IMG/VR virus record: IMGVR_UViG_3300023202_000383
Span: 62,001 to 126,000 of that record
DNA from: a virus
Direction: 5' to 3' (one strand)
DNA: 64,000 nt
A model generated the notes under the pieces. That model was given only the letters and a program-made list of their open reading frames with translations. It ran no database searches and had not been told where the DNA came from. A program made the position numbers and the translations under genes. Below are positions 3,115 through 63,131 of this stretch, piece after piece. How positions within the stretch are numbered: the first letter of the stretch is position 1; every line of letters starts with the position of its first letter.

Positions 3115-3137
3115 TAGTAAGTATAGGAGAAATTATT

Positions 3138-3851: not shown

Positions 3852-3949
3852 TGAAACTCAGAACGTTATATGAATCTATTGATTCCATCGATTTGGATTT
3901 GCGCAATTTGTTAGATATCGCTGGGATCCGTGGTAAACAAAGATTGTGA
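3851..3949 (+). CDS. 32-aa peptide beginning MKLRTLYESIDS
   Basis: ATG 3851 overlaps the TGA of the previous gene (TGATG), typical of coupled phage genes. Its first twelve residues match the pattern of the next gene (MKLKNLHESGDS) and of the gene at 61144 (MKLNLLHENVD). The peptide ends after 32 residues, so it may be a truncated paralogue of the 3970 gene. The shared N-terminus is discussed in the findings as a possible capsid-targeting propeptide. Confidence 0.4.
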   Translation: MKLRTLYESIDSIDLDLRNLLDIAGIRGKQRL

Positions 3950-3969
3950 GCCGATAATCGGACATTAAA

Positions 3970-4209
3970 ATGAAATTGAAGAATTTACATGAATCTGGTG
4001 ATTCTTTGATCCTTTTAAAGGACAAAGTTGAACGCATGAGATCAAGCACATTACACAAGATTGAGCAAGAAATAGAATTATTAGAAATCGGGTTACATGC
4101 ATTAAATAAAAATAAGCCGCATGTAACGGTAGATCATATGGAAAGATCTATTGATGCACTCAAAAAGCTTGCGGGATATCTAAACACATGGTGGGATACT
4201 AATTTATAA
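3970..4209 (+). CDS. small helical protein with MKLxxLxE N-terminus
   Basis: 79 residues, MKLKNLHESGDS followed by an amphipathic, probably coiled-coil helix (VERMRSSTLHKIEQEIELLE). It sits inside the block that interrupts the structural gene split between 3138 and 5902. The N-terminal LHE matches the LxE cleavage pattern of gp21-type prohead proteases, so an internal head protein is possible. Otherwise unrecognised. Confidence 0.5.
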   Translation: MKLKNLHESGDSLILLKDKVERMRSSTLHKIEQEIELLEIGLHALNKNKPHVTVDHMERSIDALKKLAGYLNTWWDTNL

Positions 4210-4251
4210 TCAAAATATGATTGCCAATCATATTGCGGGCAAATATGATGT

Positions 4252-5262
4252 ATGAAACCAGCCAATTTTGTTGATATAGATATTAAAAAACTCAAAAAGT
4301 TCTTTCGGACCCATACATTAGGCCAATGTGCGAAAGAATTCGGCTGCTCCAGTGCAACAATAAAGCGTAAACTGAAAGCAGCCGGTGTTGATACTTCTAT
4401 CCACAACAATAGCAGATTAGCTAAAGACTTATTCAAGAAATCCAAAAAAGATACATCATTTCTGACCGAGAATTTTTTGTATGATCAATATATAATCCAG
4501 AATAAAGATTCTAAGACAATAGCTGAAGAAAACAAGTTACATTATAATACTGTGCGCAATAGGATACAGAAATATGGTTTAAAGAAATCAGCAAAAAATG
4601 TGTCAGCATCTATGATGGTTAGGCATTATGAAAAAACTGGATATATGCATCCAGGTCAGAGACCAGATGTAATAAATAAGATCAATAAAAGAAGATCAAG
4701 ATATTATTATAAACCAGCTAAATCTAGTAAAAATTGTTTATTTAAATCGCTGCATGAATTATGTTACGCATTACTTTTAGACAATGATGACGATGTTGAA
4801 TCGTGGGATTATGAATTAATAAAGATCCCATATATTGATAGATTGACTGGCAGGCACAGGATGTATTATGTCGATTTCTCCGTTCAGGCTAAATCGGGCG
4901 ATAGATGGGTTGAGGTTAAGCCAGCTGAGAATATGATTCCGCACGACAAATATTTATATGCGTCCCAAGCCGCAAAACAAGCTGGGATTATGTTTAGGGG
5001 GCTCATAGGGGATGAAAAAAGTCGGGGATATGAACTATTTAAATCTGGATATATGAAAGATAACATTGAATTTAGGAATATTAAAGATATAAAAAATGAC
5101 AAGAATTATACTCTATGGTTCAAAAATATCAATGAAGTAGGTAAAATAAAACACGACCACTATGTTTACAAAGAAGAGGTTGGGCCGTATGTCAGAGTCA
5201 AGCTTAAAGCAAAAGCCAAGAATAAGTCTGGCACCTCTAACACATATCAATGCTATAACTGA
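4252..5262 (+). CDS. HTH plus PD-(D/E)XK nuclease, putative free-standing homing endonuclease
   Basis: 336 residues. Two helix-turn-helix units lie at about 15-45 (LGQCAKEFGCSSATIKRKL) and 75-110 (SKTIAEENKLHYNTVRNRI). A lysine/arginine-rich linker precedes a nuclease core at 165-225: Glu169 in a helix (SLHELCYALL), Asp208 in YYVDFS and the E-x-K pair Glu221-Lys223 in WVEVKP, a typical PD-(D/E)XK arrangement resembling TnsA-like enzymes. It lies inside the fractured structural gene, which fits a homing role like that of free-standing endonucleases in split-intein loci. Its last 100 bp overlap the next ORF. The family fold is well supported; homing is inferred from position. Confidence 0.7.
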   Translation: MKPANFVDIDIKKLKKFFRTHTLGQCAKEFGCSSATIKRKLKAAGVDTSIHNNSRLAKDLFKKSKKDTSFLTENFLYDQYIIQNKDSKTIAEENKLHYNTVRNRIQKYGLKKSAKNVSASMMVRHYEKTGYMHPGQRPDVINKINKRRSRYYYKPAKSSKNCLFKSLHELCYALLLDNDDDVESWDYELIKIPYIDRLTGRHRMYYVDFSVQAKSGDRWVEVKPAENMIPHDKYLYASQAAKQAGIMFRGLIGDEKSRGYELFKSGYMKDNIEFRNIKDIKNDKNYTLWFKNINEVGKIKHDHYVYKEEVGPYVRVKLKAKAKNKSGTSNTYQCYN

Positions 5263-5936: not shown

Positions 5937-7622
5937 ATGAAAGTTGCAGATATAAATGAGCAGGCGTTAGTTGATGATTATAAATCTGGCGCATCTCTCA
6001 GAGATCTTGCCAATAAGTATGGTGCCAGCAGACCAACAATAAAAAAGAGGTTGTTAAAAAATGGTATAGGTATATTGTCATCTACTGACTATATTGCGAA
6101 GTACAATAAGAAGCACAGAGATAAATCTAACAAAAAGAATCGTCAGGGTATTGTGAAAAATCAGGTAGAATATGTAGATATTAATAGAACCACTGGGGAG
6201 TTTGTTGAGCAAGCGGCATCTATTCATAATAGTAGATATGACTATTCGTTAGTAGATTATAAGACTGCTGACGATAAAGTAATTATAATATGTCCTATTC
6301 ATAATAAATTTAGACAAACTCCGCATAGCCATTTAAAAGGCCATGGTTGCCCAAATTGCGGCAGAGAGGCTGGTATTAGCAAGAGATCTATCAAATTTAA
6401 TGAATTTCTTAATAGAGCTGTAGAAAAGCATGGAAATAAATTTAGATATATTGAAGATAGCTATAATGGGCTGAATTGTGATATAACAATCATATGTCAA
6501 GAACACGGGGAATATAATCAGAATGCAAGACAACATTTGTATGGCAGGCAATGCCCTCGATGTGCTGGCGGAGGATATATATCGACAACTAATGAATTCA
6601 TAAGCAAGGCCGTTGAGGTTCATGGCGGCAAATTTGATTATAGCCGCGTTGAATATTCAAACAATAAAACTCCAGTTACAATAGTTTGTCCAGTGCACGG
6701 CGAATTTATGCAGAAGCCGAATGGTCATTTGAATGGCCATGGGTGCTTGATGTGTGCTAGAGATGCGACTTCTTCTGCTGCAGAGTTTGAAATAGTTGAA
6801 TTTCTTAACTCAATTGGCATTAATAGTATTCAACATTCCCGGAGCATCATACCACCCCTTGAATTGGATATTTTTGTTCCTGATTTTAATGTAGCTATAG
6901 AATATAATGGCATATATTGGCATTCATTTGGTAATTTGGAGGAAGAAGATAAATATTCGCATTGCTGCAAATTAGATCGTTGCAAAAAACTTGGAGTCAG
7001 ACTAATCCAGATTTTCGAAAATGAGTGGATATATAAAAAAGATATAGTAAAATCGATGCTAGTGTACTTATTCAATAAAAGTAATAACAAGATTTATGCT
7101 AGAAATTGCGATATTAAAGAGATATCTACATCTCAATATAAAAAATTTACTGATGCTAATCATATGCAAGGATATAGGGCCGCTGCCGCGAGGTATGGTT
7201 TATTTGATGGGGATGAACTTGTTGCTATAGGATCATTTAATAAATATGGTAGTAGAGATTATTGGGAAGTTATCAGATTCGCCAATAAATTGAATCACCA
7301 TGTTGTCGGTGGTTTTTCTAAGATATTGAAACATTTTATAAGAAATGACAAACCTAGTAAAATTGTAACATATGCTGATAGAAGATATTCAGACGGCTCA
7401 TTATATAACAAATGTGGTTTTAAATATATATCGACTACTGATCCAAATTACTATTATGTCAATGGACTAGAAGTGAATAGCCGCCAAAAATTTCAAAAAC
7501 ATAAGCTTAAAGATAAATTGCGCGAGTTTGATAAAAATTTGACGGAAGCGGAAAATATGTTTAATAATGGGTACCGTAGATTATGGGATGCTGGCAATCT
7601 TAAATACCAGTTTCTTATTTAA
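5937..7622 (+). CDS. putative homing endonuclease: HTH, three zinc modules, Vsr/EDxHD-like nuclease, Mom/GNAT-like C-terminus
   Basis: 561 residues. HTH at about 8-42 (SLRDLANKYGASRPTIKKRL). Three Cys/His modules at about 88-141, 155-209 and 219-273, each with IHxxKxxY, CxxH and HLxGxGCxxC elements. Nuclease core at 283-370: helix EFEIVEFL, Asp311 (LELDIF), Glu322 and His329 in IEYNGIYWHS, then LIQIFENEW. The C-terminal domain, about 395-545, has NHMQGYR, LFDGDELVAIGSF, YWEVIRFA, VGGFSKILKHF, TYADRRYSDGSLY and GYRRLWDAG, shared with the ORFs at 1349 and 13536. The ORF sits between perfect 38-bp repeats, strong evidence that it inserted as a unit. Nuclease family well supported; the acyltransferase-like assignment is inferred. 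Confidence 0.78.
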   Translation: MKVADINEQALVDDYKSGASLRDLANKYGASRPTIKKRLLKNGIGILSSTDYIAKYNKKHRDKSNKKNRQGIVKNQVEYVDINRTTGEFVEQAASIHNSRYDYSLVDYKTADDKVIIICPIHNKFRQTPHSHLKGHGCPNCGREAGISKRSIKFNEFLNRAVEKHGNKFRYIEDSYNGLNCDITIICQEHGEYNQNARQHLYGRQCPRCAGGGYISTTNEFISKAVEVHGGKFDYSRVEYSNNKTPVTIVCPVHGEFMQKPNGHLNGHGCLMCARDATSSAAEFEIVEFLNSIGINSIQHSRSIIPPLELDIFVPDFNVAIEYNGIYWHSFGNLEEEDKYSHCCKLDRCKKLGVRLIQIFENEWIYKKDIVKSMLVYLFNKSNNKIYARNCDIKEISTSQYKKFTDANHMQGYRAAAARYGLFDGDELVAIGSFNKYGSRDYWEVIRFANKLNHHVVGGFSKILKHFIRNDKPSKIVTYADRRYSDGSLYNKCGFKYISTTDPNYYYVNGLEVNSRQKFQKHKLKDKLREFDKNLTEAENMFNNGYRRLWDAGNLKYQFLI

Positions 7623-38788: not shown

Positions 38789-38872
38789 ATGTCCGATAAA
38801 GATTTTATCAAGCGTATCGCTGGCCTAATAAGTGAAGATGCAGACGGCGGTAGTAGGAATTATCTGTTATAA
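38789..38872 (+). CDS. 27-aa peptide MSDKDFIKRIAGLISE...
   Basis: Has a good ribosome site (aaggaaagtgATG) 9 bp after the acidic protein gene, and its stop overlaps the 3' end of TerL on the other strand. LISED fits the I/LxE protease pattern. It could be a real small head peptide or a gene truncated at the TerL boundary. Confidence 0.4.
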   Translation: MSDKDFIKRIAGLISEDADGGSRNYLL

Positions 38873-41800
38873 TTAATATTATGTTTTCGGTGCGAGATCA
38901 CTTGTCTCGTATCTATCGGTCTACCACCTAGCTGGTTGGTAAATTTCGCTAGCTCTTGCTCCGGCGTCATTTGGTTATTGTTCATTGTCATCATAGTATA
39001 TGGCATCAATATATTGGGGTCATTTGTGTGCACCAGCTGAGCTTGATGCTGAGCCAAATTCGCTCGCTGCTTGGCTTCCAATACCATATCTTGGTCTTTA
39101 TTCTTGATTGGGATAAGCCCAGCTGCATCTTCTGCTACAGCATCATTAATGGCTACGAAGGCTAGAGCTGCGGCCATAACGAGGTCGTCGTGATTACCTC
39201 GACCTTTTTGCGCCCCAGTTTTACCGGTCTCGAATCCTAGTCTATTTCGTTCTTTGACGTAAATCACTAATTGATCTAACAGTCTTTCACTTCTTATATA
39301 ATATCCGTCACCTTCATTTTCTGATATGCAGATTTTCAACATCTTGTTTAATGTTGCTTTGCCAGATTGGCTAGTTGCAAATCCTATTGGGCCTAGCTGG
39401 TTTGTATTATGCCTCTTTTTCCTCCATAGAGATGGATAAAGCAGATCTTGCATGTCGTCTATAAAGCTGTCACCTATGCCAGTACGTTCTATGCATGCTA
39501 ATGCATTATTGTACCATCTTCCTAAATAATCGACTATTTTAGAGAATGTGTCTGGTCTGACCTTACCCAAGTATTCAGCAACTTGTTCCATCGTGTCTAC
39601 GTCGAATATCTGTATCGCTGAAAAGTCTTGGTTCTTGCCGGTTGCAATATCGACTCCCATTACATAAGTGTGTCCTGGGTTGTCGCTTACTAGTTTGCCG
39701 TTTTTCAGGACAGATTTATCTGGTTTTACTGGTTTTCTCCAGATTCTTAGACCTTCATCTGCTGTGTTTCCTCTAAACTCTAGGTGTTCTTTGTTGCCCG
39801 TTTGCGGATGTATATACTCAACAATATCGGCAGGAATTTCAGGTAGAAACGATTCATCCACCATTTTCATCACTCTAGCTATCGCGGTTGGGCTAAGGAC
39901 TGTACTGCCGCTGCCTATAAACTCAGCGAGAATTTCTTGCCTGAATAGGTGAGATTCACCCTTCTGTTGCATGTCACGGTATTCGCCTTCAAGCCAAGGC
40001 GACCAATATGGTCCGTATTTTTCTATTCTTGCTTTATCGCGGCATTTTTCAATGTCGTCTATTGGAGCAAGCCTTTTTTGCTCTCCGCTTACGTCATCTT
40101 TCCATTCAAGCGCCCAATCCATATCCCACCAATTTATTTCGATGGCATTAAAGTTATTCAAATCTTTCTTTGCGTCAGTCCATGTGCTCCAGTACCAGTT
40201 GCCAAGGCCATTTGGAGTCTGGTGACCTATAAATCCATTATAAGATACTGAATGTGCCCACTTGTCTTCGTTGTTGTCCGGTAGCGAGAAATCATAGACT
40301 TCTTTATTTGAATAATCTACAGATTCTATTTTAGACCAAATTATTTTGTCGTTTATATAATCACCATATTTAGAAACGTCAATATTGTTTTGAGAAGCAA
40401 CATTTAACAGTTTTAAAAGTACCTTTCTGCTTACATTTTTCTTGTGTCGAGCCTTATTGCTCAATACGACATTCAAATTTAACCCATATTTGTGTTTTAG
40501 TGTCCAAGTACCAAATGGCAAATCATCAAATATTTCTTTACATATTTTGTGCCCGTTTGGTATGATATCATAACTAGTGCCACTTCTTGTGCCTTCGCAC
40601 AGCGATCGGTTTTTTTGTTTTCTATCAAATCCAAATTTTATTTCATCAAAAAAGATTGATGAATAATATTTACTGCATTCTATAATATAGGTATCATGAT
40701 TGTGCTGTGATACCTTGGTCTTTTTATTGTTCTTAATATATTCATTTGCTGATTCCGCTGTTCTTATGCGTTGTGTTGTAATTACCCCGAAGTTGTTTAA
40801 TATGATACGTATTTGTTTGGCTAGATCGGCCGATGTTGTTGTATATCCAACTAGCCCATCGCGTTTTCTGCTGTGGCCATCTCCGTCATACATTCCAGAC
40901 AGTAGTGATGCGATGATTTGTTTGCTGCATTGCATCAATCTGTTTGGTATTCGCTTATTCGGCGCATTGGTATGTTCAAATCCTAAATGCAACATTAGTT
41001 CCCACAAATTAGTGGAAAAAATTTGCCAATGGATTCCATCAGTATTTGTCCACGGCAATTTTAGTCTGTCAAGAACGCGAGATATATCATCGCCGCAGGT
41101 TATGGTAATCTTGTGGCTATTGCAATTTTTGGAACTATATACAGACCCCTCGGCAATATACAGGCCGAATAAATAAGCCAAATCTGGTGTGATTTTGGCT
41201 GGGTTAAATGGGTACTTAACGTTTGTTGATGGGTCAAATCCAGTTATGCTAGTGTTGTCACCCCAGCAGTTCATGCCATATTGTGTCGATAACCAATCGC
41301 CTATCTCTAATTCAGACAATGCATACCACCCAAATCCTTTGTTTTGTTTATAGGCATACATTTGATGTGCTAGCGACCCTTCAATTTCGCCATATCGTGT
41401 TGTCAACTTTTTTGTATCTGCCACTCCGCTGTTGTAGAAAAAACCACCTTCTCTTAATTTATTACGACCCAAAACGTTGTATTTGGGAACAGCATATGTG
41501 CCAGATTGTTTGTCGTTTATAAAATTATCGACTAGCGTTGGACCTTGATCAGTTACTACATATGTGCCCTTAGGAACACATGATATGACTATCAGAGCAC
41601 CACCATGCATGAGAGTAGACCTACCGGCAGCCCACATCGCTTCCATGTGCGGCATGAACGCTGCCTCGTCGATGATATTCAATGATGAGGCGTATGATCT
41701 AAGTGTATCTGGCGACGATGTCAGAGATCGTATAGTAGATCCATTGGTGAATCCGAACTGATGCTCGTTATCGATTGGAGTCTGCCATATCTGCTTCATC

Positions 41801-42144
41801 CAATCTGGGAGATTATTATATACAAATTTTACGTTTCTATTTAAGAATTCTTTAGCTTCGAGATCTCTTTTGGAGACTATTAGTATTGTCTTATTGCTAT
41901 GGAACATAGCAAACCATAAACAATATGCCCCAGTAAGCGTAGAGACGCCCGTTTGTCTACATTTTTTAAAAATATTGAATTGGTGATTCCTAAAATCTTC
42001 GAGACACCTTTTTTGATAACTAAATAATTGGAAGTCGAGCAATCCAATGCTCGGGTGTTTGATCTTGCAGAATGTCTGTATAAAGTATGATACTGATTTC
42101 TTACATCTACCAATCAGTATTTTTAGTTTATCTGCGTCTGACAT
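38860..42144 (-). CDS. terL: terminase large subunit interrupted by an intein
   Basis: 1094 residues, 640 of extein and 454 of intein, on the minus strand. ATPase: KKCRQTGVSTL at 60-70 (Walker A type), SLNIIDEAAF at about 154-163 (Walker B with catalytic Glu) and ALIVIS joined after splicing to TPNGLGNWYW, the STPNG coupling motif. Nuclease: HTYVMGVDIATGKNQDFSAI, LACIERTGIGDSFIDD and RGNHDDLVMAAALA carry the acidic residues of the RNase H-like domain. TerL drives ATP-dependent packaging and cuts the concatemer. It is divergent from the TerS-like and portal genes. Confidence 0.93.
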   Translation of the reverse strand: MSDADKLKILIGRCKKSVSYFIQTFCKIKHPSIGLLDFQLFSYQKRCLEDFRNHQFNIFKKCRQTGVSTLTGAYCLWFAMFHSNKTILIVSKRDLEAKEFLNRNVKFVYNNLPDWMKQIWQTPIDNEHQFGFTNGSTIRSLTSSPDTLRSYASSLNIIDEAAFMPHMEAMWAAGRSTLMHGGALIVISCVPKGTYVVTDQGPTLVDNFINDKQSGTYAVPKYNVLGRNKLREGGFFYNSGVADTKKLTTRYGEIEGSLAHQMYAYKQNKGFGWYALSELEIGDWLSTQYGMNCWGDNTSITGFDPSTNVKYPFNPAKITPDLAYLFGLYIAEGSVYSSKNCNSHKITITCGDDISRVLDRLKLPWTNTDGIHWQIFSTNLWELMLHLGFEHTNAPNKRIPNRLMQCSKQIIASLLSGMYDGDGHSRKRDGLVGYTTTSADLAKQIRIILNNFGVITTQRIRTAESANEYIKNNKKTKVSQHNHDTYIIECSKYYSSIFFDEIKFGFDRKQKNRSLCEGTRSGTSYDIIPNGHKICKEIFDDLPFGTWTLKHKYGLNLNVVLSNKARHKKNVSRKVLLKLLNVASQNNIDVSKYGDYINDKIIWSKIESVDYSNKEVYDFSLPDNNEDKWAHSVSYNGFIGHQTPNGLGNWYWSTWTDAKKDLNNFNAIEINWWDMDWALEWKDDVSGEQKRLAPIDDIEKCRDKARIEKYGPYWSPWLEGEYRDMQQKGESHLFRQEILAEFIGSGSTVLSPTAIARVMKMVDESFLPEIPADIVEYIHPQTGNKEHLEFRGNTADEGLRIWRKPVKPDKSVLKNGKLVSDNPGHTYVMGVDIATGKNQDFSAIQIFDVDTMEQVAEYLGKVRPDTFSKIVDYLGRWYNNALACIERTGIGDSFIDDMQDLLYPSLWRKKRHNTNQLGPIGFATSQSGKATLNKMLKICISENEGDGYYIRSERLLDQLVIYVKERNRLGFETGKTGAQKGRGNHDDLVMAAALAFVAINDAVAEDAAGLIPIKNKDQDMVLEAKQRANLAQHQAQLVHTNDPNILMPYTMMTMNNNQMTPEQELAKFTNQLGGRPIDTRQVISHRKHNINYNR
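40219..41580 (-). mobile_element. LAGLIDADG intein in TerL (454 aa), ending in Gln
   Basis: Cys1 is residue 189 (CVPKGTYVVTDQGPTLVDNF). Endonuclease motifs LAYLFGLYIAEGS and ASLLSGMYDGDGH. Block F is VYDFSLPDNNEDKWAHSVSY and the end is GFIGHQ followed by Thr. A C-terminal Gln replaces the usual Asn; such inteins are known and can splice. Insertion is exactly between Ser and Thr of the STPNG motif. Confidence 0.9.
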
Positions 42145-42747: not shown

Positions 42748-45738
42748 ATGGCTTGGCAACTATTTGATAGAATTAGAGGGTTTACTAGATCTGCTGGTAT
42801 ATATCAGCAGGACCGCCTGCTTCAAGACCAGCCTTCTATAGATAAGTTAATTTCTGGCAATCAATTTCTAGACTTCAATCAGCAGCAAGCACTTCTAGAC
42901 CAGACCAATCTTCAAATAAATAGACTTGAGCGATACAAAGATTATGACCAGATGGATGAAGTTGGCGAAGCGTCGCTCGCGTTAGACCTATATGCTGATG
43001 AGTCATCGATAGTTGACCCAGAATACAAGCATACTGTCATTATAAAGTCTGCACATTCTTCTGTAAAACATGCTCTTGAAGACCTGTTTCACAATCGAAT
43101 ATTAATAGATAGAATAATCAGGGCGATGGTGCGGTACTTGGTAAAGTACGGCGATGCTCCGTTTGAAATCATACCAACGACTGATAGAGATGGCGTTGCG
43201 ACCATCAAATTCATAAATGTTTATAACTTCACTAGGGTTGAAACGAAGTATGGTGATCTAGTTGGCTTCTTCCATCAAGATGAGATGGCGGCTGAGCCGA
43301 CGTTTCTGCACCCGTGGCAGGTTGTGCATTTTAGGCTTACTGAGTATGGTAATATTTATCACCCTTACGGGCGGTGCGCCGAATTCGGCACTAGGGTTTC
43401 CACGCCATCCGGATATAAGAATATTGAAGATTTTAAACCTGGGGATGATGTATACTGCTTTGCTAACAACAAATTAGTCCCGACTAAGGTGGTTGCTGCA
43501 TGTCATTCTGGCGAGAAGAAAATATTAAAAATTAAGACGCGGCATTTTGAAAATAGATGTAGCGAAAATCATCCAGTAATGGTTCGGCAGTGGAATCTGA
43601 AGCCGTTTAAGTATGGCAAGAAGTGGTTCGCTGATCTTGTCTATAAGAGAGCTGACGAAGTTGAGATTGGCGATGAATTAGTTGTTCCTAGAACACCTGA
43701 ATCTAATAATTATAATATTCTTGGCAATATCGGCAGCATGAACGTTGTCGCTGATGAAAAATTCGCGAGATTATTCGGATTCTTGATTGGCGATGGATGG
43801 TTGATGCGCAGGCATGGCAAAAACACCGGTGTTGAATTTGCTAATGGAGTAGACTCGAATCTTAATAAATATTATGGAGAATTATTGGATAATTATTCTC
43901 CTAATAAGATAAGGTCTTATAAGAAAAATGGGTCTCAAAGCACTTTAGTAGAAGATGCGACACATACATGCTCGAAAGATTTTGCTGATTTCTTAGAGAA
44001 AAAATGTGGATTCATTCAGGGTTCATACAATAAGAGAATCCCGCAGTGGGTATATTCTAGCCCAATGTCGGTCCAGAAGGAATTTATCCGTGGGTTGATT
44101 GATTCGGATGGTAGTAGTAATGTTGACGAATGGAAGTGTGAAAGGCTGCAGCTTGAGCTATCAAATTATGAATTAATAAAAGATGTTAAGATGCTTCTGC
44201 ATAAAATGGGTCTCAAGTGTGGGCAGATTCTAAAAAGAAACCGAGACGAAGACACTACTATAATCCATAGCCAAGAGTATGATAGACTCGATTCGTGGAC
44301 AATATACTTTTATAGATCAGACTTATTTGAAGCTGCTGGAAGACATGTGCAGCATTTAGCTGGTTCTCGTGGGTACAACTCTCGCAAGAAGGAATCTTCT
44401 AAATTTGGCAAAGATGTGATTTTTGAACCAGTAGTGTCTATAGAAGATGGCGGAACAAAGCCAACTGCTGATATTCAAGTTGATCACCCAGCATCAAACT
44501 TCGTTGCTGATGGTGTTGTTGTTCATAATTCTATCTTAGAGGGCGGAAGAAAGGCGTTCAAACAGTTGCGCCTTATGGAAGATGCAGCCCTTATATATAG
44601 AATCACGAGGGCTCCGGAGAAGAGGTTGTTCTCGATACCTGTTGGTAATATTCCAACTAAAGAAGTGCCTGAATATATTCAGGCTATCGCTCGGCAGTTC
44701 AAGAATCAACGATTCTACGATCCAAGGACGGGCGAATTTAACGAGAGGTATTCGCCGCTTATTCAAGAGGATGATTTCTTCTTGCCCAAGCGACCTGATG
44801 GAAGTGGCCCTGCAATTGACATACTCAAAGGTGCAGAGAATCTTGATCAGATAGCCGATATAGACTATTTCAAGAAGAAGATGGTCGCGCCTATGCATAT
44901 CCCATTTAGCAGGGTTGGCATAGGTGAAGGTTCTGGTGAAAATAGCGAGAAGTCTTTGGCATCTGAACATTCTCAATTTGCCAAGGCGGTTCAGTACGTC
45001 CAAAGAGAGATCGCCATAGGCTTACAGAAGGTCGCTATATGCCACCTGGCTATGGCTGGATATACTGCAAAGCAGATTAAAGATTTCTCGATTACGATGA
45101 CCGCCACTAATGCTATCGATGAATTATATAGAATAGAAACATGGTCTGGCAGGACCAGGGTCATGGCCGATCTCAAGGACCTTGGTTGGTTCCCGGACGT
45201 GTGGATTGTCACGAGATTTACGGATCTTAGCCCGGACGAGATTCAAGAACTCAAGACGATGGAGTCTCAGCTTGGAAGTGATGAAGGGGTGGATGAAGAG
45301 GCTCTTGGTCTTGGGGGAGGGGGAGGCGGAGGCGGTGGGATAGATGATCTGCTTGGCGCAGAAGAGGGCGAAGGTCTTGATGAGCTTGAAGGCCTTGAAG
45401 CCGAAGGAGAGGGTGGAGAAGATGGCGAGGCTGAGGATTTAGAGGATCTTGGTCTTGGCGAGAAATCTATGTATAATGCATATAAGGAAAAGAAAGTTCT
45501 GCAAGAACACAAGTTGCAGAGAAAGCGTAGAATAATAAAGGAATTCGTAGAGAAGATAAGAAACATGGGTATGAATAATGGGGGCGAGAAAGCTAATGAG
45601 ACATCTGCCTACGAAAATCTTAGGATGGAGAATGAGTTTGACGGACTAGAATCCAAGTCGAATATTGGTGGAGGTGTTTTAGAAGAAGATATTAAGAGCG
45701 AAGCCAAAGAAGAATATAAGAAAATATTGAGTGAATAA
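42748..45738 (+). CDS. gp20: portal protein interrupted by an intein
   Basis: 996 residues, 611 of extein and 385 of intein. N-terminal portal pattern: LERYKDYDQMDEVGEASLAL, ALDLYADESSI, IIRAMVRYLVKYGDAPFEII (cut). The intein lies after HPYGR; the extein resumes SILEGGRKAFKQLRLMEDAA, LIYRITRAPEKRLF and VGNIPTKE, all typical T4 gp20 elements. The C-terminus carries a nine-Gly run and acidic repeats, then a basic helical end. It forms the dodecameric ring for DNA entry and neck attachment. Confidence 0.92.
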   Translation: MAWQLFDRIRGFTRSAGIYQQDRLLQDQPSIDKLISGNQFLDFNQQQALLDQTNLQINRLERYKDYDQMDEVGEASLALDLYADESSIVDPEYKHTVIIKSAHSSVKHALEDLFHNRILIDRIIRAMVRYLVKYGDAPFEIIPTTDRDGVATIKFINVYNFTRVETKYGDLVGFFHQDEMAAEPTFLHPWQVVHFRLTEYGNIYHPYGRCAEFGTRVSTPSGYKNIEDFKPGDDVYCFANNKLVPTKVVAACHSGEKKILKIKTRHFENRCSENHPVMVRQWNLKPFKYGKKWFADLVYKRADEVEIGDELVVPRTPESNNYNILGNIGSMNVVADEKFARLFGFLIGDGWLMRRHGKNTGVEFANGVDSNLNKYYGELLDNYSPNKIRSYKKNGSQSTLVEDATHTCSKDFADFLEKKCGFIQGSYNKRIPQWVYSSPMSVQKEFIRGLIDSDGSSNVDEWKCERLQLELSNYELIKDVKMLLHKMGLKCGQILKRNRDEDTTIIHSQEYDRLDSWTIYFYRSDLFEAAGRHVQHLAGSRGYNSRKKESSKFGKDVIFEPVVSIEDGGTKPTADIQVDHPASNFVADGVVVHNSILEGGRKAFKQLRLMEDAALIYRITRAPEKRLFSIPVGNIPTKEVPEYIQAIARQFKNQRFYDPRTGEFNERYSPLIQEDDFFLPKRPDGSGPAIDILKGAENLDQIADIDYFKKKMVAPMHIPFSRVGIGEGSGENSEKSLASEHSQFAKAVQYVQREIAIGLQKVAICHLAMAGYTAKQIKDFSITMTATNAIDELYRIETWSGRTRVMADLKDLGWFPDVWIVTRFTDLSPDEIQELKTMESQLGSDEGVDEEALGLGGGGGGGGGIDDLLGAEEGEGLDELEGLEAEGEGGEDGEAEDLEDLGLGEKSMYNAYKEKKVLQEHKLQRKRRIIKEFVEKIRNMGMNNGGEKANETSAYENLRMENEFDGLESKSNIGGGVLEEDIKSEAKEEYKKILSE
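43375..44529 (+). mobile_element. LAGLIDADG intein in the portal protein (385 aa)
   Basis: Starts CAEFGTRVSTPSGYKNIEDF (block A). Block B is NRCSENHPVMVR, with Ser in place of the usual Thr before the ENH. Endonuclease motifs LFGFLIGDGWL and FIRGLIDSDGS, block F ADIQVDHPASNFVADG, end VVVHN followed by Ser. All splice-critical residues are present, so it is probably active. Confidence 0.92.
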
Positions 45739-48688: not shown

Positions 48689-49372
48689 ATGAATACAGTG
48701 ATTAATAGAGGCGCTATTGCTCAAACTGGCCAGGTTCCTGCTGGCACTCAGTTTATCCAAGACACCTTCCCTCTAAAAATTTTAGAGTCGAAGAGAGACG
48801 TTAATGAGTCAATAGGTGGCAAACCAACCCTAAAGATCACTGGCGTCATCCAAAAGGCTGATGAAGCAAATCAGAATGGTCGTGTTTATCCATATGATGT
48901 TCTGGCAGAAGCTGTAGACAATATTCAAGAAGATTTAGAGACTAGAGCTGTTATCGGAGAATTCGATCATCCAAGTGACGCAAAAATTCATCTGGACAGA
49001 GTTAGTCATATTATGACTAGAGTTTGGATGGAAGGCAAGTACGTTTATGGTGTTGCTGAAGTTTTAGAAGAGATGCCATGTGGTCAAATGCTCGGTGCAT
49101 TGCTTCGTAGTAAAGCTAGAGTTGGCATTTCTTCTAGAGGTGTTGGAGACATGGAGGCCGTCAATGAAGGGGCGGACGGGGAGATGCACCGAGTGCTTCC
49201 CGGTTATTCATTTGTCACTTGGGACATCGTAGGTGAGCCAAGTGTCAAAGAAGCCGTGATGAGCGTGATGGAGAGTCGCAACAGGATTGTAACTAGAGCC
49301 AAGAAGGCGAATATCGATCCATGTGAGGCTTTGGTCACAGAAATTAACAAATGGCTCAGAAGTATCCGATAA
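48689..49372 (+). CDS. gp21: prohead core protein protease (gp21-like)
   Basis: 227 residues, ribosome site aggag before ATG 48689. IQKADEANQNGRVYPYDVL starts the domain; catalytic residues fit the family: His in VIGEFDHPSDAK and Ser in ARVGISSRGVGD, with YSFVTWDIVGEPS near the end. T4 gp21 (212 residues) cleaves head proteins after an L/I-x-E pattern during maturation. The motifs LxE and IxE recur in other proteins of this window. An endonuclease ORF is inserted 13 bp after the stop. Confidence 0.88.
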   Translation: MNTVINRGAIAQTGQVPAGTQFIQDTFPLKILESKRDVNESIGGKPTLKITGVIQKADEANQNGRVYPYDVLAEAVDNIQEDLETRAVIGEFDHPSDAKIHLDRVSHIMTRVWMEGKYVYGVAEVLEEMPCGQMLGALLRSKARVGISSRGVGDMEAVNEGADGEMHRVLPGYSFVTWDIVGEPSVKEAVMSVMESRNRIVTRAKKANIDPCEALVTEINKWLRSIR

Positions 49373-49385
49373 GTATCTAATCTTT

Positions 49386-50783
49386 ATGGATTATGTTACT
49401 AATCAAGTCGTAGAGTATATATGTTCAGATTGTAAAAAGTCACAAAAAATGAAGTATCGCCGGACCAGATATAATGGTTGGCGATGTAAAAGTTGTAAAT
49501 TAAAAGCATTACACAAGTCTGGCCATTATGATGGCAAGATTGGGTTGAATAAATTATCTGAAGAAGATAAAGATAAATTATCTAAAATAACTTCTGACAG
49601 ATGGAAAAATAAAGAATATCGACGTAAATGGAAAGAATCGAGAAATAAAACCAAAGAAAAAAGATCTAAAATATCGAAGGAGATATGGTCTGACCAAAAC
49701 AGGAAAGATAAATTATCAGAATTGCTCAAAGAAAGGTGGAAGGATCCAGAATACAGAAAATTAAAAAGTGAACAAAGCAAAAAATTATGGAATGATAAAG
49801 ATTATAGATCAAAAACTAGATTCAATAGAGGCAAAATATCGGGATTGCAGGAAACATTTTATTCTATATTAGATGATTTAGGATATGTTGCTTCTGATAG
49901 ATCTGCAGAAAAGCATTATTTTAGAGAATATGAGAACAAGCCGGATGATATAGAATGTTCAGTCGGCAATAAGGGTCCTTATAGTGTTGATTGTGTCATT
50001 CCTAAGTCAGATGGAACATATTTGGCTATTGATATTAATGGAGAATGGCCACACAGCCAACCAAATCGCGTCAAAATAGACGATGCAAAAATGTCATATA
50101 TGAGAAGTTATTTATCAGATCAATATGACTATAGAGTTATATGGGAAGTTGATTTTTTAAGCAAGAATAAGCTTGTTGACACGCTAAAAGAATGGCTAGG
50201 GATAAATGACATCAAAATATCCGAGTTTAGTTTCTCTGATATAGAGATCAAAAAATGTGTGGCTAGCGAATATAGAATATTATTGGGCAAGTATCATTAT
50301 TTGTCAACTGGCACAAGAGGTGGTATTTCTTATGGTGCATACTTGGATAACAAATTAACTGCTGTGTGCATGTTTTCGCCTCTTTCCAGGCAAAATATAT
50401 TGATCCCCAAAGAATATAATCGAAACCAATGTAGAGAACTGTCTAGATTCTGCATTGATCCAAGATACCAGAAAAAGAATTTTGGGTCTTGGTTTATATC
50501 TAGGTGCATTAAACTCTTACATAGAAATATTAAATTTATAATATCATATGCAGACACTACATTTGATCACGATGGGTCAGTATACAAAGCGAGCAATTTT
50601 AAATTAGATAAGGAAGTCCCACCTGATTATTGGTACATGAGGCAAGATGGTTGGGTGCTGCATAAGAGGACAGTATATGGGCACGCCGTTAGAATGTCTA
50701 TGAAAGAATCTGAATATGCAGAAAAACATTATTTAAGAAAAGTATATGGAAATAAAAAACTTAGGTTTGTATATAACCGGTAA
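49386..50783 (+). CDS. putative homing endonuclease with the clearest Mom-like C-terminal domain
   Basis: 465 residues from ATG 49386; the track-length start at 49323 would overlap the protease gene. CSDC and CKSC at residues 13-37 form a zinc ribbon. A basic array of RWKNKEYRRKWKES / RWKDPEYRKLKSE / LWNDKDYRSKT units follows. Nuclease core at about 160-260: YSVDCVIPK, LAIDINGEWPHSQ, VIWEVDFL. The last 190 residues read like Mu Mom: GKYHYLSTG, AYLDNKLTAVCMFSP, CRELSRFCIDPRYQKKNFGS, ISYADTTFDHDGSVYKASNF and a final LRKVYGNKKLRFVY. Mom modifies adenine through an acyl-type group. Whether this domain is catalytic is unknown. Confidence 0.75.
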   Translation: MDYVTNQVVEYICSDCKKSQKMKYRRTRYNGWRCKSCKLKALHKSGHYDGKIGLNKLSEEDKDKLSKITSDRWKNKEYRRKWKESRNKTKEKRSKISKEIWSDQNRKDKLSELLKERWKDPEYRKLKSEQSKKLWNDKDYRSKTRFNRGKISGLQETFYSILDDLGYVASDRSAEKHYFREYENKPDDIECSVGNKGPYSVDCVIPKSDGTYLAIDINGEWPHSQPNRVKIDDAKMSYMRSYLSDQYDYRVIWEVDFLSKNKLVDTLKEWLGINDIKISEFSFSDIEIKKCVASEYRILLGKYHYLSTGTRGGISYGAYLDNKLTAVCMFSPLSRQNILIPKEYNRNQCRELSRFCIDPRYQKKNFGSWFISRCIKLLHRNIKFIISYADTTFDHDGSVYKASNFKLDKEVPPDYWYMRQDGWVLHKRTVYGHAVRMSMKESEYAEKHYLRKVYGNKKLRFVYNR

Positions 50784-53580: not shown

Positions 53581-53600
53581 TTTTTTAAAGGAAATTGACT

Positions 53601-55151
53601 ATGAGCCACGTGCAGAACACGATTACTGAGACCGCAGACGCCCACAAGGAGTCTGTATTGGTTGAGGCACGTAGGAATACTATGGTCAAGAAGTGGTCGC
53701 CAGTCCTTGCCAAGTGCAAGGAGGTTAACAGAAAGAAGTATGGCCTCATGGCCCAGCTTCTTGAGAACCAGCATCAAGCTTGGAACCCAGAGGGTGGCAA
53801 CTCGATGCTGTTCGAGGATGTTACCACAACTGGCAACGTAGCGGACTTTACCCGCTTCGCACTTCCTCTGATTCGTAAGTCCTACCAGCGTCTGATTGCC
53901 GACAATCTTGTTGGCGTTCAGCCGATGACTCAGCCAGCATCGCTGATCTTCTATATTCGTTATCGTTACGCCATCTCCAAGGGCCAGACGGTTGCGGGTA
54001 CGCAGATCATGCGTCAAAACACCAGCCAGCAGTTCGCTAAGCAGAACGGCTGGGCACTCGATCCGTTCTACTCTTCGCAGTACGTACGTAACGAGGAAGC
54101 CACAGTCGCTGCCGGTACTGGCACTGAGACAGTCACCAAGGTGCTGGATCAGCGTCCGATCTTGGCTGGTACAGTGGTTGTTAACGTTTACGAAGCCGAT
54201 CAGTTCAACCAGCAGTGCGATCTTGACGATGCGTTCCTGCAGGTTACATATGATTCGGACGGCAACGTTGACACCGTTCTTCTCAACTCCGACGACACTG
54301 ATGTAACAGCGGGCCTGGTCGTTGACGAGATGTCCTCGTCCTTCGACGGTTCCACTGGTACTGTCACGCTTGTCGTCACAGGTGCATTCCCAGCGGGTGC
54401 CCGTGCTTTCGTTGACTACGAGTACGACCTCGAAGCCAACCCATTCCAGCCAGAGCTGACTCTGAGCATCGACAGCGACTCGGTCGCCGCCGTTACTCGT
54501 AAGCTCAAGACCGCTTGGTCGCTGGAGGCCGCACAGGACCTCAAGGCTGTCCATAACATCGACGCAGAGGCAACTCTGACCGATCTTATGGCCGACGAAA
54601 TGGTCGCGGAAATCGATCGTGAAATCATCAACGATCTCATCATCGCCGCAGCCATTAGGGCTAACCACAACTTCGCCACCGCAGCCGGTGCCTCGGTCAA
54701 CTTTACTGACCGTAACATCGCCCTGCTCTACAAGGTGCTCGAAGTTGCCAACATCATTCACAGAGCCACCTTGCGTGGTCCTGCCAACTGGATGGTCACC
54801 TCGGCTGACATCGCTTCGAAGTTCGAGCAGCTGAATGACTTCCGTGGCAGCGACGCTCTGGCGGATGAGGGAATCGATATCGGCATCATGAATGCCGGTA
54901 CGATTCAGGGTAAGCTGAAGCTGTACAAGGATCCGCTGTTCCCGAACTGCCGAATCCTGATGGGTTATAAGGGTAATAGCGTCCTTGACGCTGGGTACTT
55001 CTATGCTCCGTACATTCCGCTTCTCAGCACTCCAACCGTGCTCGATCCTAACTCCTTTGTCCCGAACAAGGGTGTGATGACGAGATATGGTAAGAAGCTG
55101 ATAGAAGACGGTGGGCTCTACTATGGAACTGTTACCGTGTCCAATCTGTAA
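53601..55151 (+). CDS. gp23: major capsid protein (gp23-like)
   Basis: 516 residues from ATG 53601 (aaaggaaattgactATG); T4 gp23 is 521. NPEGGNSMLFEDVTTTGNVA, FTRFALPLIRKSYQRLIADN, LVGVQPMTQPASLIFYIRYR, DLKAVHNIDAEATLTDLMAD and ILMGYKGNSVLDAGYFYAPY are conserved gp23 segments. The start, MSHVQNTITETADAH, contains an IxE site that may be used for propeptide cleavage. Codon use is clearly different from the neighbours (C-ending codons, high GC), fitting high expression. A terminator follows. Confidence 0.95.
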   Translation: MSHVQNTITETADAHKESVLVEARRNTMVKKWSPVLAKCKEVNRKKYGLMAQLLENQHQAWNPEGGNSMLFEDVTTTGNVADFTRFALPLIRKSYQRLIADNLVGVQPMTQPASLIFYIRYRYAISKGQTVAGTQIMRQNTSQQFAKQNGWALDPFYSSQYVRNEEATVAAGTGTETVTKVLDQRPILAGTVVVNVYEADQFNQQCDLDDAFLQVTYDSDGNVDTVLLNSDDTDVTAGLVVDEMSSSFDGSTGTVTLVVTGAFPAGARAFVDYEYDLEANPFQPELTLSIDSDSVAAVTRKLKTAWSLEAAQDLKAVHNIDAEATLTDLMADEMVAEIDREIINDLIIAAAIRANHNFATAAGASVNFTDRNIALLYKVLEVANIIHRATLRGPANWMVTSADIASKFEQLNDFRGSDALADEGIDIGIMNAGTIQGKLKLYKDPLFPNCRILMGYKGNSVLDAGYFYAPYIPLLSTPTVLDPNSFVPNKGVMTRYGKKLIEDGGLYYGTVTVSNL

Positions 55152-55182: not shown

Positions 55183-55217
55183 AAAGGCGGCTTGGAGACA
55201 AGCCGCCTTTCTTTTTT
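55183..55217 (+). terminator. intrinsic terminator after the capsid gene
   Basis: Twelve-bp stem aaaggcggcttg / caagccgccttt with a gaga loop, then ctttttt. Ends the head operon. Confidence 0.92.
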
Positions 55218-55270
55218 ATATAATAACAATATATTAGAGACATATCATCATTACTTTTTAGGAATATAAA

Positions 55271-57355
55271 ATGCCGAAATTTAAACAAACTCTACCAGCC
55301 AAACAAATTGAAAAGTGGATACAAAATGGAATGTCAATGAGTGAAGTTGCGAGGCGACTAAATAAAAGTGTTGGTAGCATATCTAATTTCTGCAAAAAGC
55401 ATAGTATAAAATCTAATTTTTCTAGTAAAGCCGTTAATATTCCGGTTGATGAAGCCTATAAACTATATCAAAATGGCGTAAGTATGTATAAGTTAGGAGA
55501 GAAGTATAACCGCCCGCCGTCTCTCGTGAAAAAGAAGCTATTAAAGAAGTATCCAGATCTTTGTATTAGAGATATGGATTCTGCAAAAAGACCAGAATTA
55601 CTCAATGACCCAATAATGCTCGCCGATGAAATGAAGTGCAAGTCATTAAGGCGCATCGCTAAAGAATTAAAAGTTAAAGTTCAAACTGTTAGCAGCGCTG
55701 CAAAAAGGCTTGGGCTAACTGAACTTATAAGAGATCAACTTGTTACAGATAAGCCTGAAGATATTCGGTTGCTATATGAATCTGGACTTAGTCTCACGAG
55801 TTTAGCGGACATCTATAATACTTATCCAACAACGATATCGAATATTATAAAAAGAGCGAAAGGGGCGACTAGACCAAGCGGGGGTGTGATACGTGATTCT
55901 AAATATGATGAATTAAATGATAAGGAATGGTTAAAACACCAATATCATGATCTTGATAGATCTATGGCGTTTATAGCGGCGTGGCTTGGTACGTCTATTG
56001 GGAATGTGTCTCACGCCCTTGACAAACATGGTATTTTAAAGAAACCAAAGAGAAAAGTATACTCTAAATTACGTAGGAAAATTTCGAAACATACGCTCAC
56101 CACCAAATGGGGAACTTGGAAATTGCAGAGCAAGGCCGAGATTGAATTTGTTAATAATATTCCTCAATCCGCTAAATTTGTAGAGTATGAACCTGAAACT
56201 TTAGAATATAATGGTGTTGAATACACACCTGATTTTAGAGTAGATGGTGAATATATTGAGATAAAACCTCCATCATATGCTTGCGAGCCAGGTGTAGATA
56301 GACAAAGATTCGTTAAACAGTTGTGCATTGCTAATAAGAACAACATAGCAATCAAGCCGTGGTATAACGGAAAGTTTTTGGATTATAAAGAAATTGAAGA
56401 CATTGATAAATATTTTGCTTTAAATTGGAAAGTTGTGTTTGATTCATCAAATGTATGCTTCGAATTTTTAAAATCATATGGTTTTAGGCCAGTAGAATGG
56501 AATAAAGATTTTTTGCTCGGCGCACTAAATAAATTACATTCTATTCCAGAAAATCAATGGCTTAACGCCAATTATCAGTGTTCTAAAATAATTGATATGA
56601 TTAGACATTTTAATCCACACTTCTGGTCTTCAACTCACAAAGGTTACAACACTATCAAGATGGCATTTGAGCCTGGTAATCAGACTATACTTAAACAGGC
56701 CTTAGAAAGTTTATGGGAGAAGAAGAGAAATATTAATATTTATGGTCTCGTTCGGATAATAGCGAAGAAGTTTAAAGATTTTGCTATGGTTAGTATTTTT
56801 AAACCGTGGGTCGCTAAGCACGTATATAATAAATTACTTCCGGATGGCGGTATTGTTATAGACCCATGCATGGGTTGGGGCGGTAGATTTTTGGGTACTA
56901 TAGGATATGATATAAAGTATATCGGGTATGACCTAAATAACAATGCGGTGCAATCAAATACTAATTTGGTCGAATTTGTAGGATCTTTGTCGATGCACGA
57001 TCCTGATTTTTCCGTTGCTGATTCTTCTGTCATTGATTGGCCAGATGGTGATTTATTGTTTACTAGTCCACCATATGATGATACCGAATATTATGATGGA
57101 TTAAAAGAACAGTGTCGAGATACGACGCCGATTTATGAGAATATTATGAGGTTTAAGGAGAAGATTGCTTTGAACATCCCTAAGCGTCATACGGATAAGT
57201 GTGTCGAGATTGCTGAGAAACATGGTCGGAAGTTAATTGATATGTATAAGATGAGGACTTCTAATTTTATGGGGAGGCGTGAGAGTACGTTTGAGCCGAT
57301 TCTTATATTTGATAAGCTTCGTGCCAATGGCGTCTTGCCGCTGCGTGTGGTTTAG
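55271..57355 (+). CDS. HTH array, PD-(D/E)XK nuclease and DNA methyltransferase in one protein
   Basis: 694 residues. Four or five helix-turn-helix units fill residues 10-255 (for example SMSEVARRLNKSVGSISNF, SLRRIAKELKVKVQTVSSA, SLTSLADIYNTYPTTISNI). The nuclease core is at 288-335: Glu290-Glu292 helix, TPDF at 319-322 and EIK at 330-332. The C-terminal domain is a SAM-dependent DNA methyltransferase: motif I DPCMGWGGRFLG at 531-542, IGYDLN at 551-556 and catalytic motif FTSPPYDDTEYY at 597-608 (SPPY type, N4-cytosine or N6-adenine). The last residues GVLPLRVV come from the repeat array that follows. It sits just after the capsid terminator. Could be a compact restriction-modification enzyme or a self-protecting homing nuclease. 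Confidence 0.75.
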   Translation: MPKFKQTLPAKQIEKWIQNGMSMSEVARRLNKSVGSISNFCKKHSIKSNFSSKAVNIPVDEAYKLYQNGVSMYKLGEKYNRPPSLVKKKLLKKYPDLCIRDMDSAKRPELLNDPIMLADEMKCKSLRRIAKELKVKVQTVSSAAKRLGLTELIRDQLVTDKPEDIRLLYESGLSLTSLADIYNTYPTTISNIIKRAKGATRPSGGVIRDSKYDELNDKEWLKHQYHDLDRSMAFIAAWLGTSIGNVSHALDKHGILKKPKRKVYSKLRRKISKHTLTTKWGTWKLQSKAEIEFVNNIPQSAKFVEYEPETLEYNGVEYTPDFRVDGEYIEIKPPSYACEPGVDRQRFVKQLCIANKNNIAIKPWYNGKFLDYKEIEDIDKYFALNWKVVFDSSNVCFEFLKSYGFRPVEWNKDFLLGALNKLHSIPENQWLNANYQCSKIIDMIRHFNPHFWSSTHKGYNTIKMAFEPGNQTILKQALESLWEKKRNINIYGLVRIIAKKFKDFAMVSIFKPWVAKHVYNKLLPDGGIVIDPCMGWGGRFLGTIGYDIKYIGYDLNNNAVQSNTNLVEFVGSLSMHDPDFSVADSSVIDWPDGDLLFTSPPYDDTEYYDGLKEQCRDTTPIYENIMRFKEKIALNIPKRHTDKCVEIAEKHGRKLIDMYKMRTSNFMGRRESTFEPILIFDKLRANGVLPLRVV

Positions 57356-57577
57356 TGTGGTGTCTGTTCGGTCCTGCCGCTGCGTGGGATCAGGTAAGGT
57401 AAAGTTTTGCCGCTGCGTGGAGTCAGGTATAGTTCAGTTAGATCATGTTTTGCCGCTGCGTGTGGTCATGTGCAGTTGAGTGCTGTCCTGCCGTTGTGTG
57501 TGGTGTAGTGGCATTCTGTTCCGCCGCTGCGTTGCGTACAGTCCTGTTTCGTCACGTCAAGTCCTGCCGCTATTTTT
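57336..57577 (+). repeat. array of seven interspersed tgccgctgcgtg repeats
   Basis: Copies of tgccgctgcgtgtgg or variants begin at 57336, 57375, 57408, 57451, 57489, 57522 and 57565. Distances are 39, 33, 43, 38, 33 and 43 bp, so a period of about 115 bp made of three units appears twice. The stretch is GC- and GT-rich compared with its surroundings and forms the 3' ends of the methyltransferase gene and of the small minus-strand gene. Confidence 0.8.
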
Positions 57578-58179: not shown

Positions 58180-58776
58180 ATGTTAGAAGACGAAAATATT
58201 AGATTCATCCATGTACCAAAGACTGGTGGGTCGTCTGTCTCATGTGTCTTGTTTGGCGATGGCAAAAGGGGAACTGGTCATCAGCCGGTTTGGCAATGTC
58301 CTCCGAAGTTAAACCAAAATCAAGTTACTGTGGCGTTTGTGCGCAACCCATTAGATCGTTTGGTATCGACTTATTCGTACCTTCTTGCTGATGGGCAAAA
58401 CAATAGAGACAAATCCGATAGCCAGAAGTTTATAAAACCGCATGGGGGATTTAAACAATTTGTTGAGGCTTTAAGTCAAGATCCGGATTTTTATTTCGAG
58501 CAGCAGCATTTGAAACCACAGTTATATTACCTGTCTGAATCTGGTAACAATGTCTGTGCCAATATAGACTGGTTGTGTAGATATGAGAGATTTGACGCAG
58601 ATTTACGCAGGCTATGTCTTGCATTCGGCAAGGAATACCGAAATATCAGAATAAATGCCTCAAAGCATGAGCATCATATCTATTATTATGATGATAAAAC
58701 AGCTGATTTAGTGATGCAGGTATATCATCAGGACTTTGAAGCTTTCGGATATCCTACTTGCCTAAAGACGGGTTAA
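58180..58776 (+). CDS. sulfotransferase-family protein
   Basis: 198 residues. FIHVPKTGGSSVSCVLF at 9-25 is the 5'-phosphosulfate-binding loop and VAFVRNPLDRLVSTYSYLL at about 57-75 is the 3'-phosphate-binding motif of PAPS sulfotransferases; YERFDADL near 135 also fits. By family it moves sulfate from PAPS to a hydroxyl or amine of a carbohydrate or other small acceptor. In a phage it may alter host surface glycans or virion glycans. It starts 3 bp after the previous stop. Confidence 0.8.
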   Translation: MLEDENIRFIHVPKTGGSSVSCVLFGDGKRGTGHQPVWQCPPKLNQNQVTVAFVRNPLDRLVSTYSYLLADGQNNRDKSDSQKFIKPHGGFKQFVEALSQDPDFYFEQQHLKPQLYYLSESGNNVCANIDWLCRYERFDADLRRLCLAFGKEYRNIRINASKHEHHIYYYDDKTADLVMQVYHQDFEAFGYPTCLKTG

Positions 58777-62510: not shown

Positions 62511-62695
62511 ATTGGATATTTAGAGTATTTACGCCGATGATGCGGCCAGACATATCACGCGCTCTAAGTGATCCAAGCACTATTGCTGCTTTCAAGAAAT
62601 TCCAAAAATCTTTATGCGCCAACATAATAATGATCCCCCGATGCCCCTCAAATAAAAATGCACATATTCAGCGCAGCAAATCGAAGGTCCCTTGA
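62507..62695 (+). CDS. short hypothetical protein
   Basis: 62 residues, ATGA overlap with the upstream gene. N-terminal half (MNWIFRVFTPMMRPDISRAL) is hydrophobic and helical; the end is basic and overlaps the next gene by 38 bp in another frame. Weakly supported. Confidence 0.42.
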   Translation: MNWIFRVFTPMMRPDISRALSDPSTIAAFKKFQKSLCANIIMIPRCPSNKNAHIQRSKSKVP

Positions 62696-63131
62696 AGAAG
62701 CGTCGGTTTTGGGCTTATGTTCAATTCGTGACGGAAAGATTGTAACGGACATAGATGGCCCACATTCTGACGCATTTGTGTGCTTTAGATTTGTCCTTAC
62801 TAATGATGCCAAAATAGAAAAGATGGCATCAGATGTTGCTGCAAACATGGCATTCAAGGATATGACCGAGAGTCTCGTTCTTGGTTATAGAGGCAAGAGT
62901 GTTGTGGATGTAGGATACTTTTATGCGCCACGTGTGTCACTCCATATCATCCCGGACGATGGTTTTGAATTTGTTTTGGGCGATACAATATTGGTTAATT
63001 CTGATTGTGATGGTTGGGTATTTTGTAAGTCAGGTAAAGTGATATCTCCATCACCATTTAATTTATATATCGAAGATTGCAATATGTTGTTGTCGTTGAT
63101 AAAAGAATATACTAATGAAGTCGGTGAATGA
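62658..63131 (+). CDS. hypothetical protein with a capsid-like GYFYAP segment
   Basis: 157 residues. LVLGYRGKSVVDVGYFYAPR matches ILMGYKGNSVLDAGYFYAPY of the capsid protein (53601) at 13 of 23 positions over the full segment. The rest (LGDTILVNSDCDGWVFCKSG, LLSLIKEY) is not capsid-like. No good ribosome site precedes ATG 62658. Function unknown. Confidence 0.55.
   Translation: MHIFSAANRRSLEEASVLGLCSIRDGKIVTDIDGPHSDAFVCFRFVLTNDAKIEKMASDVAANMAFKDMTESLVLGYRGKSVVDVGYFYAPRVSLHIIPDDGFEFVLGDTILVNSDCDGWVFCKSGKVISPSPFNLYIEDCNMLLSLIKEYTNEVGE

Follow-up and report, generated by a model that had tools for sequence, protein, structure and literature searches.

A single open reading frame directly behind the major capsid gene gp23 of a giant phage encodes a helix-turn-helix (HTH) array, a PD-(D/E)XK nuclease and an SPPY methyltransferase in one chain. 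The gene is probably mobile, a free-standing homing-endonuclease cassette equipped with a DNA modifier that protects its carrier. In relatives, cutter-plus-modifier genes are interchangeable at this one spot, which suggests that they are mobile genes and that DNA marking spares the carrier while competitors are cut. The window referred to below is the whole stretch of viral DNA analysed, 64,000 nt of IMG/VR record IMGVR_UViG_3300023202_000383 (positions 62,001 to 126,000).

The fused gene and its protein

The ORF at 55271-57355 is one unbroken, intact reading frame with its own start codon, which lies 119 nt past the gp23 stop and 53 nt past the gp23 terminator hairpin (Table 1). Pfam recognized the HTH region (HTH_38 at E = 3e-18 over three stretches, and HTH_23) and matched no domain in the remainder of the protein. 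The AlphaFold model, for which an 82-sequence alignment served as input (pLDDT 89.9), contains exactly five three-helix HTH units, where four or five had been proposed. Next comes the alpha/beta core of the nuclease, whose first helix carries E290; D321 lies between strands, and E330-x-K332 occupies the strand that follows. A helical segment leads to a complete class-I methyltransferase, in which DPCMGWGGR and SPPY are both present. All six aligned homologues retain the four nuclease residues, and conservation exceeds 90% at the key methylase positions of the 82 sequences; no catalytic residue was found to be lost in either domain. The preliminary description, which had placed an HTH array, a nuclease core and methyltransferase motifs in a single polypeptide, is borne out in each of these parts.

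Table 1. Features of the gp23 region and of companion elements in the window
Feature	Position	Strand	Evidence
Whole ORF: HTH array, PD-(D/E)XK nuclease and SPPY methyltransferase, 694 aa	55271..57355	+	sequence, structure prediction
gp23 major capsid protein; the slot begins directly 3'	53595..55151	+	Pfam Gp23 E=3e-78
gp23 intrinsic terminator, GGCGGCTT-GGAGAC-AAGCCGCC, T-rich tail	55186..55217	+	sequence
AGGA, likely ribosome-binding site of the ORF	55260..55263	+	sequence
Five three-helix HTH units, residues 10-43, 59-93, 114-146, 162-195, 218-252	55298..56026	+	Pfam, predicted structure
PD-(D/E)XK nuclease domain, residues 274-365; E290, D321, E330, K332	56090..56365	+	alignment, predicted structure
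Helical segment, residues 377-503, common to fused methylases of the window's clade	56399..56779	+	alignment, predicted structure
SAM-dependent amino-methyltransferase domain, residues 504-682	56780..57316	+	conservation, predicted structure, Foldseek, profiles
Methylase motif I, DPCMGWGGR, residues 531-539	56861..56887	+	82-sequence conservation
Methylase catalytic motif IV, SPPY (TSPPY = residues 598-602)	57065..57076	+	82-sequence conservation
Six to seven repeats of ~20 nt, core TGCCGCTGCGTG	57328..57571	+	sequence
Companion element, Zn/NUMOD-like + Vsr-like nuclease + Mom	49323..50783	+	Pfam Mom 3.8e-22; PHROG Mom-like 3.3e-26
Companion element, HTH + treble-clef repeats + Vsr-like nuclease + Mom-like domain	5937..7622	+	domain searches

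Another virus (L001) carries a syntenic, 60%-identical copy of the ORF. Between the two copies, pN is far below pS in every domain, with dS saturated, so that both halves of the protein appear to be maintained. The HTH array probably serves target recognition. The free-standing endonuclease at 4252, to which the HTH-nuclease half had been likened, shares the general layout (HTH plus TnsA-like nuclease), but sequence kinship between the two did not hold up (BLASTP E = 1.8). An intein or intron at the locus was considered and rejected, as a start codon and homologues of its own were seen for the N-terminal half and no splicing domain was found.

At the end of the ORF lies an array of short repeats spaced 33-43 nt apart, the first copy of which encodes the final residues of the protein. 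The exact TGCCGCTGCGTG core occurs nowhere else in the genome, and no such array was found beside the relatives of the ORF.

Substrate of the methylase

The window methylase belongs to a large phage family, PHROG 12517, whose members are usually stand-alone proteins of about 330 aa (75 of 80 loci). It combines motif I and [DNS]PPY in a class-I SAM fold, as DNA amino-methyltransferases (N6A/N4C) do, and the fold was recognized by Foldseek as that of class-I methyltransferases. A profile search returned a modification methylase (2zie, 3e-7) and a DNA N4-cytosine methylase (8s9n, 0.005), the viral-structure matches are N4-cytosine DNA methylases, and in the fused relative L065 the domain scores above cut-off for PF01555 (N6_N4_Mtase). 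The best PDB fold matches, by contrast, are tRNA and rRNA amino-methylases such as TrmN, Trm11 and METTL5. Weighed against these RNA matches, the profile and structure relatives point to DNA, on which the domain is predicted, and likely, to act.

It is barely plausible that the SPPY domain gives no self-protection, acting instead on RNA or serving as an accessory for structure or DNA binding. Besides the PDB matches, the motif order seen in the profile search (I before IV), which is permuted relative to beta-class DNA methylases, is in favour of this reading. Nevertheless, the matches to DNA methylases speak against it, and so does the finding that this methylase alternates with Mom, a DNA modifier, in the slot behind gp23.

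Pairing of nuclease and modifier behind gp23

The contents of the slot were surveyed across relatives. A gp23 search gave 80 loci, which together with loci collected earlier were reduced to 47 non-redundant neighbourhoods, in which gp23 shares less than 97% identity and 1.4 kb or more of downstream sequence is available. Methylases fused to a nuclease of the PD-(D/E)XK (6 loci), LAGLIDADG (5), HNH (3) or TnsA-like (2) type were found, along with overlapping HNH and methylase genes (6), nuclease-Mom fusions (3), HNH genes alone (9) and a truncated TnsA-like gene (1); 12 loci had none of these. The nine HNH-only sites reveal that the slot can carry a nuclease without a modifier. The reverse, a slot methylase without a nuclease, was found in 0 of 22 cases (Fisher p = 1e-4), and an overlapping HNH gene accompanies all six methylases that lack a live fused nuclease versus 0 of 16 that have one (p = 1e-5), although the loci are metagenomic contigs and kin by descent, so these p-values overstate independence. 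Judged from these sequences, the pairing of nuclease and methylase at the gp23 slot appears to be obligate.

The HNH and methylase genes overlap by 14-29 nt at their junctions. In L012 the PD-(D/E)XK domain is deleted and an overlapping HNH gene is present, and L016-L018 have no fused nuclease half. Outside the census, L020 contains a LAGLIDADG domain without both catalytic Asp residues, paired with an overlapping HNH gene. L015 is an exception: its fused nuclease is live, and 145 nt downstream there is also a distinct HNH gene. L019, likewise outside the census, is an HTH-methylase ended by the contig edge and has no upstream HNH gene.

These counts bear on the proposal that the methylase is the working part, marking the genome against host restriction, and that the nuclease half is selfish, a passenger that joined a safe neighbouring gene. 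The mostly stand-alone occurrence of the methylase family elsewhere in phages and the lost, dead or absent nuclease halves of L012 and L016-L018 are in its favour. Against it, each of the 22 slot methylases is accompanied by a nuclease, an overlapping HNH gene is present in all six cases without a live fused nuclease, and the same layout has been reached with several nuclease folds and with two modification chemistries. The proposal is decidedly unlikely.

Among cellular genomes there was one close match, in an array (gp23, HNH, HTH-methylase, nuclease-Mom) on L193, a 7-kb contig in a Lokiarchaeota bin, which is very probably a misbinned virus.

Exchange of nuclease folds

Relatives of the window methylase are fused to PD-(D/E)XK nucleases (L001, L011, L014, L015, L020, L091), TnsA-like nucleases (L021, L233), LAGLIDADG nucleases of two Pfam types (L013, L030, L047, L059, L065, L219, L231), HNH nucleases (L234, L266, L271) and a Vsr-like nuclease with zinc fingers (L005). 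On the methylase tree the label of the live nuclease changes at least 13 times, with long branches that leave the deep nodes unsure. Sister pairs on this tree include L021 (labelled PD-(D/E)XK) with L059 (LAGLIDADG), and L023 with L063; moreover, the LAGLIDADG fusion L013 is nested within the window's own methylase clade. Fusions of nuclease and methylase thus appear to have arisen independently and repeatedly.

In L020, positions 1108-4900 hold two methylase fusions in tandem, a dead-looking LAGLIDADG-methylase followed by a live PD-(D/E)XK-methylase, with the overlapping HNH gene upstream.

Turnover of the slot and fragments of gp23

On the gp23 tree, slot contents change at least 29 times, versus 31.2 changes expected from random labels, and turnover appears near-random. 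Pairs of gp23 genes at 90-94% identity carry different slot contents, and in such pairs DNA homology extends to the gp23 stop codon and stops there. Vertical inheritance of the slot methylase, a reading of L011-L019, was rejected in view of the 47-locus census and the gp23 tree.

Behind several cassettes, fragments of the gp23 3' end were found. L015 carries a direct repeat of about 54 bp (the last 41 nt plus about 13 nt), L219 a 34-nt piece, and L228 a deleted gp23 3' end that is nearer to the L225 allele than to its own gp23. A profile of the gp23 3' end gave 14 matches, some of them individually weak, versus 0 in reversed, 0-1 in shuffled and 0 in upstream sequence. Such fossils are what would be left if the cassettes had entered by way of repair at the 3' end of gp23. 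Slot turnover, nuclease exchange, pairing and these fossils lend good comparative support to two earlier suggestions, that the gene is a mobile insertion after the capsid terminator and that it may be a homing nuclease with its own protective methylase.

Near the window cassette no nucleotide-level gp23 fossil was found. No clean two-sided empty site was seen among the 11 pairs compared, because the downstream flanks are not alignable, and gp23 identity revealed no clear co-conversion step. Elsewhere in the window, a small unrelated ORF (62658-63131) includes 27 residues (62874-62954) that share about 52% identity with a conserved part of gp23 close to its C-terminus.

Mom fusions and Hef-like endonucleases

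The architecture, first thought unusual, is not unique and belongs to a large class that includes nuclease-Mom fusions. The window genome encodes one methylase of the present kind and seven Mom-domain matches (P0003 and six other ORFs), five of them above the Pfam cut-off. Each lies in an open frame some 500-620 codons long whose N-terminus resembles a nuclease, in one case a double HNH. Over about 300 residues, the nuclease-Mom proteins can be aligned with Hef-like homing endonucleases from Campylobacter phages, and also with a phage TG1 ORF located between nrdA and nrdB. The C-terminus of the Hef-like proteins in turn matches the Mom domain (E = 6e-12), and the two groups are collinear. Hef of phage U5 cuts nrdB, according to a review (PMC2988022).

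The companion element at 49323-50783 lies between gp21 (48689-49372) and a gp22-like gene; its nuclease motif, IDINGEWPHS, is possibly altered. By eye, an eighth candidate was seen on the minus strand (1349-3016, 555 aa), with HTH, treble-clef repeats, a Vsr-like core (EMHGIYWHSF) and a Mom/Hef-like C-terminus.

Nuclease-Mom fusions are already known from jumbo phages, where Mom fused to REase-fold nucleases was interpreted as restriction-modification (R-M)-like (PMC7824862). By the same reading, the window ORF would be a phage-borne single-chain R-M enzyme acting at short, frequent sites, whose methylase guards the whole phage genome and whose nuclease destroys DNA of the host or superinfecting DNA; that the gene moves at the gp23 slot would then be secondary. 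The enzymatic pair would be identical, and the overlapping HNH-methylase genes resemble R-M operons. Yet most of the nuclease folds (LAGLIDADG, HNH/EndoVII-like, Hef-like) are those of homing enzymes, an array of five HTH units points to a target that is long and rare, and the slot is a classical position of intronless homing; the gp23 fossils also speak against an R-M role. NCBIfam gave no R-M family match and PADLOC only weak type II methylase matches. An R-M role of this kind is unlikely; a compact R-M enzyme evolved from a homing nuclease, as was also suggested at the outset, is possible.

Type IIG/IIC enzymes (BpuSI, MmeI, Eco57I type) likewise join PD-(D/E)XK and an amino-methylase in one polypeptide. 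The BpuSI type, however, consists of nuclease, gamma-methylase and C-terminal specificity domain (PMC4081073), whereas the window ORF begins with its HTH array and stops about 92 residues past SPPY, while still within the methylase fold; no C-terminal or fused S target-recognition domain follows. Searches of Pfam, NCBIfam and PADLOC matched no type IIG family of such a layout, and with the specificity domain also missing, type IIG membership was rejected. A Mom-family C-terminal domain is absent as well, the C-terminus being the methylase.

Proposed homing with a built-in modifier

The window ORF has the features of a free-standing homing endonuclease. It is intergenic beside a conserved gene with no intron or intein, its kind occurs sporadically at the gp23 slot of close relatives, and it has a homing-nuclease fold with intact catalytic residues (the PD-(D/E)XK residues are invariant, and sister cassettes are LAGLIDADG and HNH). 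From these comparisons we infer cleavage, the base methylated, the target site, protection and transfer in mixed infection as follows. The HTH array would bind a target that lies most likely in or near the conserved gp23 3' end. The PD-(D/E)XK domain would cleave this target in co-infecting relatives without the cassette, while the methylase would mark the same target in the carrier. Repair of the break templated by the carrier would then transfer the cassette, together with gp23 sequence close by, to the cleaved genome. Since the gene adjoins gp23 without interrupting it, its insertion cannot destroy the target, and methylation would supply the immunity that introns gain by site disruption. 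A linked modifier acting as immunity would also account for the obligate pairing, the interchangeability of methylase and Mom, and the repeated independent fusions.

Self-sparing by free-standing homing endonucleases has been attributed mainly to differences in target sequence. If the present reading is true, a built-in modifier lets the gene invade any phage with an intact conserved target, homing endonucleases are tied to the evolution of R-M, and several nuclease-modifier fusions in giant phages such as the window's are explained. It would also provide a mechanistic reading for the C-terminal half of Hef-like homing endonucleases and make the question of self-sparing directly testable. Whether modification enzymes (methylases, Mom) replace site disruption as immunity in intronless homing generally, with T4-like giant phages harbouring a large class of such mobile genes that pair diverse nuclease folds with diverse modifiers, either fused or encoded by overlapping genes, is to us an evenly balanced question.

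Several known systems share parts of this arrangement. T4 Seg, Mob and Hef occupy intergenic slots beside conserved essential genes, and the window slot is that of segD, located between T4 genes 23 and 24; free-standing endonucleases cleave hundreds to thousands of bp from their own gene (PMC2988022). As among T4-type free-standing endonucleases, different nuclease folds occupy one slot, and the nuclease is joined to an HTH or zinc DNA-binding region. A difference is that no modification enzyme is known from Seg or Mob, whereas the window ORF, for which homing would be the predicted behaviour, includes a methylase. The jumbo-phage nuclease-Mom fusions (PMC7824862), about seven of which occur in the window genome, also join nuclease and DNA modifier in one chain and use the same slot in relatives, but they carry Mom (N6-adenine acyl-type) and no SAM methylase, usually with a Vsr/REase-fold nuclease. 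In the ShiLan element a mobile nuclease is likewise associated with a phage methylase gene; there the HNH is an other-frame insertion into the methylase (PMC11855218), whereas the window ORF is one in-frame polypeptide with an intact methylase. The PhiPA3 gp210 endonuclease is used against a co-infecting relative, as the window ORF may be, but is intron-encoded and without a modifier (PMC11620839).

The literature searched, which excluded most subscription papers and REBASE, yielded no fusion of a homing endonuclease and a methylase. Nor did this literature contain a prior account of the methylase series, the fold swapping, the gp23 slot or the Mom-like C-terminus of Hef-like homing endonucleases.

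Other genes of the window

The gp20 portal gene (42748-45738) contains an intein with a LAGLIDADG_3 domain. A 1094-aa ORF on the minus strand (38860-42144), with LAGLIDADG_3 at 411-469 and no further Pfam match, is perhaps another intein host, and a 263-aa ORF (3060-3851) has a weak Vint/Hint-domain match. Downstream of the cassette, 58180-58776 encodes a phage-borne sulfotransferase family protein (Pfam Sulfotransfer_2, 7e-13).
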